Source: Bacteroidota bacterium (GTDB lineage Bacteria; Bacteroidota; Bacteroidia; Bacteroidales; FEN-979). From it: a DNA stretch of 64,000 nt. The position numbers and the translations under genes were made by a program. Under the pieces are notes generated by a model. The model ran no database searches. It was not told the origin of the DNA and worked only from the letters and a program-made list of their open reading frames with translations. The stretch's first letter is position 1, and each line of letters starts with the position of its first letter. Positions 16,507 through 22,249 of this stretch are shown here, one piece after another. The DNA lies in contig JAPLDK010000009.1 of NCBI GenBank assembly GCA_026391775.1, positions 1 through 64,000 of the forward strand. Reading direction: 5' to 3'.

Positions 16507-17748
16507 CTACTTCCCGAACTTCCCGAGCAGATCCTTTACTGCATCTTTGTGCACCATAAAATCCATCATCTTTAGCTTAACGTAATCTCCGCGGAAGAAA
16601 TAATATCCGAACTCGGGCGTGGTCTCGTCGTTATTCCTTGAACCTGAACCTGAATCCTTGATGAGGTACCAGTCGGTCCCGTCTTTTTCGTACCAGCCTA
16701 CGAGGTGCATGCCGTGGTCATCGGTTGTCGTTTTGTTCGAGAACCTGAATTGCCTTGCGTTATCATCGATGTCGGCAACGGCAATGTCAAAACTGGGAAT
16801 TAAGGCTACCTGTGCCTCACGGCTGAATCCTGCTTCGGAAACATCACCCCCGATCACTATGGTATAATGGTTCCTGATGGCATTTTTCAAGGCATTCATA
16901 TAATCCTCCAGGGGGACGTTGTAATACTCCTTACTGTGCCACCAGTTATCCGGCACTTCGTATTCCACCTTTTGCCAGAAGGGTTGCTGGAGGTATGAAA
17001 GGACATCAATATAATCATCCATCTGCAGCTTCAGATAGTCCTGAAGGAATTCTTTAGGGGTATAGCGTTTCCCTTTCCATTCAAATGATTCGGGGGGAAC
17101 GCCCATGTAATGGTTCAAAATGCTCTTTACAGTAGAAACAACCTGTGATTCATCCCAGGCATTCGTGTTCTTTACATTATCCATGTACTGACCGAGTTCT
17201 TTGAACATCTTTGCATGGGTATAGAATTTACATCCGGGCTCCATGCCGTTGTAAACTTCCCTGGGGACTATCCCGTATTTTTTAAACTCACGGATCACGG
17301 CATTGGCCTCGGAACCTTCAGTAAAGGCTGAATTTCCTCGTTCTGAAACAAAGCGTTTGGCCCTTTCCACATACTCCCAGTAAACGGTATACATTTCTGA
17401 AAGCTTGACTTCCTGTCCTGTGAGCCGGTGGACCTCCGATTCAAAAAAGGAAGTGGTTGAAAAGCACCAGCATGTGTTCGTGTTTCCCTGGGATACCGGA
17501 GGAAGGCGCCATTCTGACTGATACAAGCTGACTTTGTTCGGGAAACTCATCCCGCTGAGGTCGGCCTGGAAGCGTTTTTCTTTTTTAGCGGGTTCAGTGG
17601 CTTCCTCCGTTGCCCTGATATCCTTCATGATGGTGTTCTGGAAATAACCGGGCTTGCCTTCTTTTATGATCCCCGTAGTCTTTGGCTGCTGGGCGAAAGC
17701 TGCAGTTGCAATGATAAAAACTGAGATTGCAAAAATGATCTTCTTCAT
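16507..17748 (-). CDS. C1 family (papain/bleomycin-hydrolase-like) peptidase, secreted
   Basis: QGNTNTCWCFSTTSFFESEVHRL (catalytic Cys region), DDHGMHLVGWYEKDGTDWYLIKDSGSGS (His/Asn region). Likely start MKKIIFAISVFIIATAAFAQ at 17748. Confidence 0.85.
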   Translation of the reverse strand: MKKIIFAISVFIIATAAFAQQPKTTGIIKEGKPGYFQNTIMKDIRATEEATEPAKKEKRFQADLSGMSFPNKVSLYQSEWRLPPVSQGNTNTCWCFSTTSFFESEVHRLTGQEVKLSEMYTVYWEYVERAKRFVSERGNSAFTEGSEANAVIREFKKYGIVPREVYNGMEPGCKFYTHAKMFKELGQYMDNVKNTNAWDESQVVSTVKSILNHYMGVPPESFEWKGKRYTPKEFLQDYLKLQMDDYIDVLSYLQQPFWQKVEYEVPDNWWHSKEYYNVPLEDYMNALKNAIRNHYTIVIGGDVSEAGFSREAQVALIPSFDIAVADIDDNARQFRFSNKTTTDDHGMHLVGWYEKDGTDWYLIKDSGSGSRNNDETTPEFGYYFFRGDYVKLKMMDFMVHKDAVKDLLGKFGK

Positions 17749-17947
17749 GGATACCGTATTTTTTTGCAAATTACAGGAAAATTTGCAACAACTAAACACC
17801 AAAACTGTTTTTCCTGGAGGAGACTCATCCGCAGTCATGGAAAATGATAAAACAAGCAAATATTAACGACAATCCATAGGGTATTTTCATCCTGAAGTAT
17901 CTTAAAGATATAAGCATCAAAAATCTGAACCTGAAAAACTATCAGCC

Positions 17948-19198
17948 ATGAAAACATTCAACAAGAACCTGCTCCGTTTTGGCATGCTATTTTTGCTTTT
18001 TGCCGCATATGGCGCAACTATGGCGCAAACTTCATTTGTTACCGTTACCGGAACGCTGAAGGATGCCAAAACCAATGAAAAAATCAATTATGCCGCGATC
18101 ACTGTCCCCGGCACTGGTATCGGAACAGTATCGAATTCCGACGGGGATTTCACCTTAAAAGTGAATTCATCGCTCAATGCCGGATACTTTGAAATATCGC
18201 ACCTGGGTTATGCAACGACACGGTTTAAGATAAGCGAAGCTGTGGATAAAGAAAAAACATACTATCTCGATGTTCAGCCTGTCAAATTACAGGAGATATC
18301 CGTTATACCTAAAGATGCACGGGAAATTGTGGATATGGCGATCCAGAACCTGAAAAAGAATTACAGCCAGGTGCCTAATATGATGACCGGTTTCTATCGT
18401 GAGTCGATCAGGCAGCGCCGGACTTATCTTTCAGTCTCCGAAGCGGTTGTCGATATCTATAAAGCTCCCTATTCAGGTTTGCAGAACGACAAGGTGAAAA
18501 TTTTCAGGGGCCGAAAGGCTACCAATGTGAAACGGGCCGATACCCTGATGGTCCAGCTTCAGGGTGGTCCGCAGATATCGATGCTGCTGGATATTGTTAA
18601 AAATACCAATCTCAGCATAGCCTTGGATAACCTCGATAATTATCATTTTGAATTCGCGTCGATAGTCAATATAGATAATAAGCTGAACTGGGTGATCAAT
18701 TTTTCGCCTGAAATTGTAAAAGAAGAACCGCTTTATAACGGAAAGCTGTACATCGAGCAGGACAACTATGCAATGACCCGGGCTGAATTCAGCCTTGATC
18801 TCAGTGATGAAGAAAAGGCAGCGCGCGTTTTTGTCCAGAAAAAACCATCGGGATTGATCTTTATGCCGACTTCGACAGGCTACCTTGTTACCTATAAAGA
18901 ACAAAACGGCAAGTTCTATCTCGACTATGTGCGCGTGGATCTGAAATTCCGTTGCGACTGGAAGAAGCGGCTGTTCAAAAATTCCTATTCGCTGATGTCG
19001 GAATTAGCGATTACAGACAGGCGGACGGACAATATCGTTAAATTTGCAAACCAGGAAGTATTCAGGTCGAACATGGTGTTTACCGATAAAGTCCAGGCTT
19101 TTACAGATGTTGATTTCTGGGGTGAAAACAACATCATTGAACCGGACAATTCCATCGAAAATGCCATCAAAAAGCTTTCAAAAAGCATGAAGAAATAA
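17948..19198 (+). CDS. CarboxypepD_reg-like domain-containing protein (paralog of 20630-22249)
   Basis: VTGTLKDAKTNEKINYAAITVPGTGIGTVSNSDGDFTLKVNSSLNAGYFEISHLGYATTRFKI; remainder aligns by eye with the 20630 product. Confidence 0.8.
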   Translation: MKTFNKNLLRFGMLFLLFAAYGATMAQTSFVTVTGTLKDAKTNEKINYAAITVPGTGIGTVSNSDGDFTLKVNSSLNAGYFEISHLGYATTRFKISEAVDKEKTYYLDVQPVKLQEISVIPKDAREIVDMAIQNLKKNYSQVPNMMTGFYRESIRQRRTYLSVSEAVVDIYKAPYSGLQNDKVKIFRGRKATNVKRADTLMVQLQGGPQISMLLDIVKNTNLSIALDNLDNYHFEFASIVNIDNKLNWVINFSPEIVKEEPLYNGKLYIEQDNYAMTRAEFSLDLSDEEKAARVFVQKKPSGLIFMPTSTGYLVTYKEQNGKFYLDYVRVDLKFRCDWKKRLFKNSYSLMSELAITDRRTDNIVKFANQEVFRSNMVFTDKVQAFTDVDFWGENNIIEPDNSIENAIKKLSKSMKK

Positions 19199-19235
19199 GG
19201 ATCAGTTTTCGGGCTTATAAACTCTTCAAATCCCT

Positions 19236-19781
19236 ATGAACCTAAGTGATTTGTATATACAGAAGAAAATCCAGGCTGGCGATATCAGAGAATTTGAACG
19301 GCTTTTTATGAAATACTATGACCCTTTGTGCCATCATGCCGATAAAATTCTGAGTGATATGGATACTGCGGAAGACGTGGTGCAGGAGTTTTTCTATCAT
19401 TTCTGGAAAGACAGGGAAAGCTTCACTTTGAAGTTTTCTTTGAACGCCTACCTGTACCGGGCTATTCGTAATAATGCTCTTCGTTATCTTGAACATCTCT
19501 CCATTCGAAAAGGCTATGCCGAAAAGGTTCTCAGCGATTTCAGGGATATAATGCCGGCACATGTTCAAACAGATGTTGACCTGAAGGAGCTGGACAAAGC
19601 AATACACTCAACCTTGCAGCAAATGCCTGAACGCTGCTCCCGTGTATTCAGGATGAACAGGTTCGAAGGGAAGAAATATCGCGAAATAGCTGAGATCTTA
19701 TCTGTTTCGGTGAAAACAGTTGAAGCGGATATGGGGAAAGCCCTGCAGATATTCAGAAAATCCTTAAGAGATTACTTTTAA
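19236..19781 (+). CDS. RNA polymerase sigma-70 factor, ECF subfamily
   Basis: EFERLFMKYYDPLCHHADKIL...DTAEDVVQEFFYHFWKDRE, LPERCSRVFRMNRFEGKKYREIAEILSVSVKTVEADMGKALQIFRKSLRDYF. Confidence 0.9.
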   Translation: MNLSDLYIQKKIQAGDIREFERLFMKYYDPLCHHADKILSDMDTAEDVVQEFFYHFWKDRESFTLKFSLNAYLYRAIRNNALRYLEHLSIRKGYAEKVLSDFRDIMPAHVQTDVDLKELDKAIHSTLQQMPERCSRVFRMNRFEGKKYREIAEILSVSVKTVEADMGKALQIFRKSLRDYF

Positions 19782-19794
19782 AAATAATAACATA

Positions 19795-20679
19795 ATGACG
19801 GCCATGGAAGAAGTTAAGGATACCAAATCACTTCACACCTGCGAAGCCTGGGATAAGCTGTATGCCCGGCTTCAGGATGAGGACCTGATCCCTGCAAAGC
19901 AGCCTGATTCAAAGAATCAGCTGGTTTATTATGGTCTGCAGATTGCCGCTCTGGCATTGATCCTGCTGGGTATAGGCGCTGTTATTTATATGAATATCAG
20001 CAGGAAGCCGGCAATTGCCATGGTTAAGCTTAATACCGTCAATGAGGCAAATACCCTTATTAAAACCCTGGCCGATGGCTCGGTGATTTATCTTGCACAG
20101 AATTCGTTGTTCTCTTATCCGCAGGAATTTAAGTTAACATCCCGCAATGTAGAACTTAAAGGGGAGGCTTTTTTCGATATTACACCCGATCCTGCTAAAC
20201 CTTTTATCATTGAAACGGATGAAGTTCTGGTAGAGGTCCTGGGCACGGCATTTAATGTGAAAACAATAAATGATAATGGCTTCGAACTTTTTGTAGACAG
20301 GGGAAAGGTCAAAGTCACCTTAAAAAAGGATCCTTCCCATAGCGAACTGGTGCTGGCAGGGGAAAAGATATCAAGCCTTAATAACAGCCTGGTTAAATCG
20401 AAGCATATTGAAACCGATGCCATTTACTGGTATAAGCAGCGCATGCATTTTAAGGATGAAAAACTCCGGGATATTATTACCGTGCTGAATCGGAATTTCA
20501 ACACTAACTTTGTGTTGGCAGATAATGAGATCGGGCAACATAAGCTTACAGTTACTTTCCAGAACGAAACTGCCGGAACAATGACCGAGCTCATTTGTGC
20601 GGCTCTGAACCTGAAAAGCCAAACTATCAATGGGTCTGTTGTGTTATCAGAAAATAAGGAAGGCGCAAAACACAATTAA
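19795..20679 (+). CDS. FecR-family anti-sigma factor
   Basis: Single TM near residue ~45; ADGSVIYLAQNSLFSYPQEF..RNVELKGEAFFDITPDPAKPFIIETDEVLVEVLGTAFNVKTI, typical FecR. Confidence 0.9.
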   Translation: MTAMEEVKDTKSLHTCEAWDKLYARLQDEDLIPAKQPDSKNQLVYYGLQIAALALILLGIGAVIYMNISRKPAIAMVKLNTVNEANTLIKTLADGSVIYLAQNSLFSYPQEFKLTSRNVELKGEAFFDITPDPAKPFIIETDEVLVEVLGTAFNVKTINDNGFELFVDRGKVKVTLKKDPSHSELVLAGEKISSLNNSLVKSKHIETDAIYWYKQRMHFKDEKLRDIITVLNRNFNTNFVLADNEIGQHKLTVTFQNETAGTMTELICAALNLKSQTINGSVVLSENKEGAKHN

Positions 20680-22249
20680 GTCTTGTGAATGCGGATTTCG
20701 GTATTACCTTACCCAGGCTTGTATTTTAAATGCATTCCTTATACTGTGTCCGTCAAATGCAGCTTTCGGGCAGGTGTCGTTGCTCGAAAAAGTCATCAGC
20801 ATACCTAAACAAAATACCACTCTTTACGAGGCGTTGAACCTGATTTCGCAAAAAGCGAACTGCCTTTTTCTTTATGAAAGCGAAACCATTGAAAGCGATA
20901 AAAAGGTTAAGATGCATGCCGAAAACCAGCCATTGCATGCAGTACTTGATAACCTGCTTTCAGATCCCTCAATTGAATACAAAGTTTTTGGAAAGCATAT
21001 CCTGATTTGTAAAGCGAAACAAGACGCAAATCCTGTAAGTAAGATACAACCGGATATCCCTGCAAAGGATACCATCAAAAATGTTATCATCAAAGGGCAT
21101 ATTTACGACAAGGAAAACAAAACAGCGGTACCTTTTGCCACTGTTGGCATCGTTGAGGAAAACATCGGGACCGTTACGAACAGCGATGGGGTTTTTACGA
21201 TCAAAATTCCTTCCTCACTCATTGGAACCTCGCTGGTTGTATCGCATCTGGGATATATGAGCCAGACCATCCCGGTTCGCCTGCTTAACGAGCAAAACGT
21301 TGATCTTTTCCTTGACCGAAGGGTAATTTCAATCCAGGAAGTGATCATCCGTTACATCGACCCGGACCTGATCATTGAGAAAGCAATGGAACTGCGGAAG
21401 CTGAATTATGCTGTTGATCCTGCTTATTTTACAACGTTTTACCGTGAAGGTGTGCGTAAAAATAACAAGTACATCAGCTATTCGGAGGCAGTTTTCAGGA
21501 TATATAAATCACCCTATACTGCCGGTGAGCATGCCGACCAGGTGAAACTCCTGAAGTCGAGAAAATTTAAGGATGCAAATCCCCGGGATACCGTTTTCCT
21601 GAAACTTAAAGCCGGTGTTCAGTCAGCCCTGCAGCTTGATATTGTTAAAAATGTCCCGGGCTTCCTTGATCTAACACCGCCTGTCGAATACACCTATAGA
21701 TACTCTGACCTTGTTTCTTATAATGCCAAAGATGCTTATGCTATCACCTTTGTGCAAAAGCCCGATCTGAAAAAACCCTTATATACCGGAACAGTGTACA
21801 TTGAGAAAGAGGGTTTTGCATTGCTTGGCGCTGATTTCGAAATAAATCCCGCTTACATCGATATTGCAGCCGGGGACCTCGTACTGAAGAAAAGCAGCAG
21901 GCTGATCGTAAAACTCGAAAAGATCAGTTATTCCATCAGCTATATGCCATTTAACGGCAGGTATTATCTCAGTCATGTGCGCTGCGATATACAGTTGAGA
22001 ACGCGTTTAAAGAACCACCTGTCCACCGATAATTTTTATACATTCCTGGAACTCGCCAACTGTAATATTGATACTGCAGGCGTTATAAAATTTCCCAGAC
22101 AGGAGATACTGAAACCCAATGTTGTGTTTTCGGAGCAGCCATACCAGGGTGATGATGCTTTCTGGGGCGATTTTAATACCATCACACCCGAAACAAAGCT
22201 GAGTGAAGCCCTGTCGAAGATCATAGGTAAGATCGAGGAGATCAGGTAA
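20630..22249 (+). CDS. STN domain + CarboxypepD_reg-like protein, no TonB-receptor barrel; overlaps the fecR-like gene by 50 bp
   Basis: STN-like LYEALNLISQKANCLFLYESETIESDKKVKMHAENQPLHAVLDNLLSDPSIEYKVFGKHILI; then IKGHIYDKENKTAVPFATVGIVEENIGTVTNSDGVFTIKIP...SHLGY. Ends at 539 aa. Confidence 0.8.
   Translation: MGLLCYQKIRKAQNTIKSCECGFRYYLTQACILNAFLILCPSNAAFGQVSLLEKVISIPKQNTTLYEALNLISQKANCLFLYESETIESDKKVKMHAENQPLHAVLDNLLSDPSIEYKVFGKHILICKAKQDANPVSKIQPDIPAKDTIKNVIIKGHIYDKENKTAVPFATVGIVEENIGTVTNSDGVFTIKIPSSLIGTSLVVSHLGYMSQTIPVRLLNEQNVDLFLDRRVISIQEVIIRYIDPDLIIEKAMELRKLNYAVDPAYFTTFYREGVRKNNKYISYSEAVFRIYKSPYTAGEHADQVKLLKSRKFKDANPRDTVFLKLKAGVQSALQLDIVKNVPGFLDLTPPVEYTYRYSDLVSYNAKDAYAITFVQKPDLKKPLYTGTVYIEKEGFALLGADFEINPAYIDIAAGDLVLKKSSRLIVKLEKISYSISYMPFNGRYYLSHVRCDIQLRTRLKNHLSTDNFYTFLELANCNIDTAGVIKFPRQEILKPNVVFSEQPYQGDDAFWGDFNTITPETKLSEALSKIIGKIEEIR

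Follow-up and report, generated by a model that had tools for sequence, protein, structure and literature searches.

In cell-surface signalling systems of the FecI-FecR-FecA and FoxI-FoxR-FoxA type, a tight operon encodes a FecI-type extracytoplasmic function (ECF) sigma factor, a FecR with a transmembrane (TM) segment and a C-terminal signalling domain, and a third partner that carries an STN domain. Here we describe a locus with these same elements in a Bacteroidales bacterium (GTDB FEN-979; assembly GCA_026391775.1), located at 17948-22249 of a stretch of 64,000 nucleotides of contig JAPLDK010000009.1, hereafter the window. Its four genes encode X1, an ECF sigma factor, FecR and STN-X, with X being a region common to the first and the last product. 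Unlike in the FecIRA systems, the STN carrier of the cassette lacks both plug and barrel and is itself unable to import a substrate in the manner of a TonB receptor, and the first gene is an STN-less paralogue preceded by a promoter-like site. Judged by its domains, the cassette thus appears to work like cell-surface signalling, without the receptor that defines it.

Other described systems share further aspects with this arrangement. A soluble periplasmic anti-sigma partner, a LolA-type half-barrel (probable in our case), a proposed hydrophobic signal and an RseP-type protease are reminiscent of RpoE-RseA-RseB and AlgU-MucA-MucB; in contrast to RseA and MucA, however, the anti-sigma of the cassette is a FecR, docking is expected via STN rather than via the C-terminal domain of RseB, and no sequence relation was detected. 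The Dma/Das and EcfO-Reo systems of Bacteroides are likewise ECF systems of Bacteroidota, with surveillance of the outer membrane as their presumed role. There, the anti-sigma is one chain that crosses both membranes and has a barrel at its C-terminus (PMC13088901, PMC9308784), whereas the FecR of the cassette (294 amino acids, aa) and its soluble transducer are separate and barrel-free. Finally, DUF5686 proteins (PF18939) also possess a CarboxypepD_reg domain followed by an X-homologous region up to a common FW motif, but continue for some 400 residues that are absent from X1 and STN-X, and lack STN. The part of DUF5686 beyond the X-like region forms a barrel. No paper on DUF5686 was found in the open-access literature searched.

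The features of the locus are as follows.

17876-17904 (+): promoter-like motif ATAGGGT-N17-TCTTA, 43 nt upstream of the start of X1; may be recognized by the sigma factor of the cassette
17948-19198 (+): X1; signal peptide, CarboxypepD_reg-like domain (residues 33-118) and X domain (about 119-416), from reading frame and Pfam
19236-19781 (+): ECF sigma factor, Bacteroidetes FecI-like; TIGR02985, Sigma70_r2, Sigma70 r4_2
19795-20679 (+): FecR anti-sigma; cytoplasmic N-terminus, one TM segment (about residues 45-67), FecR domain, FecR_C signalling domain
20443-20640 (+): FecR_C domain of FecR; expected docking site for the STN domain
20630-20679 (+): overlap of the fecR and STN-X frames, 50 nt
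20630-22249 (+): STN-X; signal peptide, STN (residues 55-128), CarboxypepD_reg (about 152-240), X (about 241-539)
20792-21013 (+): STN domain of STN-X; found by Pfam in orthologues, alpha/beta fold in the model
21350-22246 (+): X domain of STN-X; predicted open beta-sheet of about 10 strands with helices, resembling LolA and the N-terminal part of DUF5686

The conserved cassette and its promoter-like site

All four reading frames lie in the order and at the positions reported by a first-pass annotation made from the letters alone, and the further anatomy that it described is borne out as well. With 33% of 381 aligned aa identical (E 9e-68), X1 and STN-X are paralogues, both with the motifs FYRE, DIVKN, DYVRVDL/SHVRCDI and FWGxxNxIxP, and the 50-nt overlap of fecR with STN-X is kept in most close relatives. 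Pfam detects CarbopepD_reg_2 in both paralogues (E 2.6e-12 in X1), and no Plug or TonB-receptor domain was detected. The sigma factor scores 162 bits against TIGR02985 (cut-off 126), identifying it as a FecI-type ECF factor, while FecR matches PF04773 (1.6e-14) and PF16344 (1.8e-9), both above the cut-off, with FecR_C at its terminus.

The genomic survey of sigma-FecR-STN-X loci proposed in that annotation was then carried out in public genomes, where 253 stretches encode a relative. Among the best 80, which were kept, 75 contain X1-sigma-fecR-STN-X complete in the same order and orientation, a proportion not transferable to the remaining 173 because the selection favours the closest relatives. 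The cassette is present in Bacteroides, Phocaeicola, Parabacteroides, Dysgonomonas, Paludibacter, Lentimicrobiaceae and uncultured Bacteroidales, usually with a sigma/fecR overlap of 4 nt, and in genomes near the window every complete STN-X found, from ATG to stop, stands behind X1, sigma and fecR. Three of the exceptions are cut by contig ends (L090 and L137) or include a sigma sequence below the score cut (L122). In another, L101 (4500-6700), an integrase-N-terminus-like frame occupies the place of X1, and sigma-fecR-STN-X is preceded there by neither X1 nor the promoter motif. L051 (7107-13176; genome G050) instead holds two tandem X1 genes followed by sigma-fecR-STN-X. As no other gene family is common to more than nine of the 80 loci, the cassette stands alone as a unit; polysaccharide utilization locus (PUL) and glycan genes are not conserved nearby. 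Neighbours were consequently dropped as a clue to function, standalone X1 relatives also being without a conserved neighbourhood.

A spaced-word search upstream of X1 recovered ATAGGGT-N17-TCTTA. Permitting at most two mismatches, 68 of the 70 cassettes that could be tested contain the motif, at a median of 42 nt before X1 and with a spacer of 17 in 68 of 68, as compared to 55 of 4000 stretches of 260 nt drawn at random from these loci and one of 70 reversed upstream regions. It precedes the sigma gene in none of 75 cassettes. The 68 occurrences are not independent, since the cassettes are related, and the site is convincing because it is spread over several families. Conversely, the motif is absent before X1 relatives that lack an adjacent sigma gene, namely ten in a single family (f47; L195-L204), L210 (from the genus of G314), L057 and L056, the latter a 4.6-kb contig where a distant sigma gene is possible. 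This pattern of presence and absence fits a scenario where the cassette's sigma factor would read the site, rendering X1-sigma-fecR-STN-X a single, probably autoregulated operon.

A single exact site is present in the window's own genome, and the count is one per genome in G000, G003, G005, G006 and G007; coordinates place it just before X1 in all of the latter except G003, where it lies on the contig that holds the cassette, as far away as would be expected. In G001, a second perfect motif (L222; G001:C5:200693-200721) lies 44 nt before a gene for a 476-aa protein with a secreted-like start, a possible extra regulon member. Attempts to find further regulon members through the motif were abandoned, as many matches elsewhere look like background, with the backwards control equal or higher. 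No paper that brings TAGGGT together with ECF sigma factors was found in the open-access literature searched; in B. thetaiotaomicron, the SigW-1 and SigH-1 motifs have been described by TGTT near -10 and a -30/-10 box (PMC12596196). The site, the conservation of the cassette and the identity of X had all escaped the first-pass annotation.

STN-X, region X and the search for a receptor

In the window's STN-X, the STN domain is sub-threshold in Pfam (E 0.17). Nevertheless, Pfam recognizes STN in 23 of 35 diverse orthologues (best 7e-8), and STN-X models match STN/N0 and signalling-domain structures, the first model also matching the PupR signalling domain (6ovm). A Plug or barrel domain was detected by Pfam in none of the 35 orthologues, and the predicted model is without a receptor barrel.

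A census of the genome (assembly 90.7% complete) returned one FecR and one FecR_C, both in the cassette, and one STN within a full-length protein, that of STN-X, two further weak STN matches being confined to frames 47 and 43 codons long. Other proteins account for the 14 Plug matches, with STN detected in none, and the nearest on the contig is about 50 kb from the cassette. STN-X is thus, as far as domain profiles tell, the sole convincing STN-bearing protein of this genome. With the only FecR, FecR_C and convincing STN all in the cassette, a SusC/D pair encoded elsewhere can hardly be a hidden partner, as the first-pass annotation had considered, keeping in mind that the STN model is weak even on STN-X and could miss a divergent STN, and that an undetected receptor could lie in the missing tenth of the genome. 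The genome also holds a gene for an RseP-type protease. Elsewhere, in genome G060 (L049:901-5008), a second sigma-FecR pair is accompanied by an 883-aa partner with FecR_C-like/STN and CarboxypepD_reg domains and a weak Plug match; this pair, whose partner is of a classical receptor type, is found about 2 kb from the barrel-less cassette, and hence both architectures coexist.

What, then, is X? Sequence searches of Pfam, NCBIfam and PDB gave no name: neither X1 nor STN-X matches PF18939 at E<=1, arguing against full-length DUF5686 proteins, and no LolA-type Pfam family matched the X proteins, leaving them outside LolA and LolB by sequence. However, when profiles of 126 X sequences and 28 DUF5686 proteins were compared by hhalign (E-values being for a single template), X aligned to the first approximately 290 residues of DUF5686 after CarboxypepD_reg, up to the common FW motif, at a probability of 96-98%, and Pfam yields a sub-threshold DUF5686 match within X of one distant relative (E 1.7e-4). 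The profile search suggested in the first-pass annotation hence relates X to the N-terminal, pre-barrel part of DUF5686, without the barrel of that family.

An AlphaFold2 model of STN-X (126-row alignment) displays a mean predicted local distance difference test (pLDDT) score of 83, mostly above 90 in X, with the relative domain placement uncertain because the predicted template modelling score (pTM) is 0.56. X is modelled as an N-terminal helix and about 10 strands. Its Foldseek neighbours are LolA-superfamily proteins (3bk5 and P. gingivalis LolA3, 9tp6), DUF1329, lipovitellin, microsomal triglyceride transfer protein (MTP) and ApoB; LolA-superfamily proteins, DUF1329, lipovitellin and MTP match at a probability of 1.00, with template modelling scores not exceeding 0.41, and the fold class is suggestive rather than proven, since for LolA-type structures the scores of the target (TMt) reach only 0.35-0.41 at a root-mean-square deviation of about 10 Å. 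A LolA-like half-barrel is the likely fold on the basis of the model, and the concern that X might be a known plug or barrel falls away: X does not correspond to a plug, and its model lacks the closed barrel of outer-membrane proteins. The preceding CarboxypepD_reg domain of STN-X resembles the SusC N-terminal extension (NTE; 9hfj, TMt 0.85). Invariant in X are FYRE, E286, D337, E474 and W512.

Both X1 and STN-X have signal-peptide-like N-termini and no TM segment. A lipobox was found in X1 of none of the 75 cassettes, with no later TM segment either, and a lipobox-like match in only three of 75 STN-X proteins, so that anchoring as lipoprotein or via TM segments finds no support. Of the surface or periplasmic location originally envisaged, the periplasmic one is therefore favored and the surface less likely; STN-X is probably a soluble periplasmic protein without receptor barrel, as deduced from these signals.

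In a maximum-likelihood tree of 79 X sequences, all 31 STN-X fall in one clade (support 100/91), whose branching largely mirrors that of X1, and X1 relatives also occur standalone in another family of the class. The simplest history compatible with the tree would start from an ancient protein of the X1 type that duplicated once and to which STN was added, with vertical transmission thereafter in Bacteroidales.

Proposed sensing loop and alternatives

Binding between a FecR-type C-terminal domain and an STN-type signalling domain has been established in Pseudomonas for FoxR/FoxA (PMC11637429) and PupR/PupB (PMC11429574), and in the Fox system STN protects the anti-sigma until the signal arrives (PMC11637429). 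Analogously, the LolA-like MucB protects MucA and is dissociated by lipids (PMC7400510). As STN-X combines a Fox-type docking part with a probable MucB-type sensing part, we propose that it senses a hydrophobic envelope component and sets the stability of FecR. FecR would hold the sigma factor at the inner membrane, with its periplasmic FecR_C bound by the STN of STN-X, and X would serve as an open LolA-type half-barrel for the hydrophobic component, most likely a lipoprotein acyl chain, lipid A or phospholipid. Ligand binding may change or release the STN-FecR contact, whereupon FecR would be cut by periplasmic and RseP-type proteases, and the free sigma factor would transcribe its own operon from ATAGGGT-N17-TCTTA. 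X1, as the first product, is the proposed main output: having the same X and no STN, it could carry or clear the same ligand, providing negative feedback. Such an envelope-sensing loop, uniting FecI-FecR switching with a carrier-fold sensor, is in our view the best explanation, with somewhat better than even prospects of being right. It also agrees with the suggestion of a receptor-less sensing system in the first-pass annotation, which is supported by X not being a plug and by the lack of an easily hidden SusC/D partner; moreover, no paper assigning the STN-X architecture was found among the open-access papers searched.

Several observations weigh against this loop. The LolA-type fold class is suggestive, considering the low TM-scores of the modelled X; L101 (Bacteroides rodentium) keeps sigma-FecR-STN-X without an adjacent X1; L107 has STN-X without sigma or FecR nearby; and the additional exact motif of G001 stands before a different gene. 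Furthermore, the pairwise distances of the four proteins, unadjusted for species relationships, correlate strongly, but shared vertical descent alone would give that, and co-divergence is therefore given little weight.

The order of STN and CarboxypepD_reg, the normal N-terminus of signalling SusC-type receptors, together with the SusC NTE-like reg domain, could indicate a degenerate or split system where STN-X is what remains of the N-terminal part of a former TonB receptor, with FecR actually partnered by a SusC-type receptor encoded elsewhere. This is very improbable, as STN-X is the only convincing STN protein alongside 14 STN-free Plug proteins, is intact in dozens of species, and has an X that is conserved in its own right. 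The direction of control is less clear-cut, as anatomy alone cannot tell it: in line with the classical FecA/FecR model (as summarized in PMC11637429), ligand-bound STN-X might instead push FecR to activate the sigma factor. We consider such a FecA-like activator unlikely, since, by analogy, the work on FoxA/FoxR (PMC11637429) and MucB/MucA (PMC7400510) would rather favor protection in the absence of signal. The ligand may, on the other hand, be non-lipid, such as an unfolded outer-membrane protein, a glycan or a peptide that X senses or modifies, the LolA-like fold being incidental. The similarity to lipid binders is modest, the invariant residues could form a specific site, and CarboxypepD_reg domains are common in glycan-uptake proteins; yet the high-probability Foldseek matches are mostly hydrophobic-ligand proteins, and glycan genes are not conserved near the cassette, making this a rather doubtful alternative that nonetheless deserves consideration.

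Returning to the envelope-sensing loop, it may have arisen through a single replacement event in which a periplasmic carrier of lipids or lipoproteins, duplicated and joined to STN, took the place of the cell-surface signalling receptor, yielding a Bacteroidales-wide envelope stress circuit, a scenario that we put forward tentatively, its chances falling short of even.

Surrounding genes and significance

In the window, a papain-type Peptidase_C1_2 gene (16507-17859, minus strand) is divergent from X1 and, in the closest relatives only, has its upstream region in common with X1. In several Bacteroides (L106:8057-12370, and also L110, L115, L120, L126 and L134), the cassette is followed within about 0.5-3 kb by a second ECF sigma factor, a protein of about 117 aa (no Pfam match in L106), a DUF4890/Spy-like small protein and, clearly in L106, L110, L115 and L126, a large gene, which in L106 encodes an outer-membrane barrel protein with CarboxypepD_reg. 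This arrangement is similar to the colitis-induced cirYZ-spy locus of P. vulgatus (PMC13114119).

It appears from the cassette that FecR/STN signalling does not depend on TonB receptors and is able to sense the periplasm. It is present in gut Bacteroides, Phocaeicola and Parabacteroides as well as in environmental Bacteroidales, and what it senses is probably the state of the cell envelope, not food. In B. thetaiotaomicron alone, ECF sigma factors number 50, with no function known for many of them (PMC12596196). X1 is a candidate output in a phylum where the transport of lipoproteins is not fully understood; a mutant devoid of all five LolA/LolB homologues is reported to be viable (PMC11885536). 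If the proposed loop is true, the cell would measure its own lipoprotein or lipid traffic by means of a duplicate of the same carrier whose production is under the control of the sigma factor.

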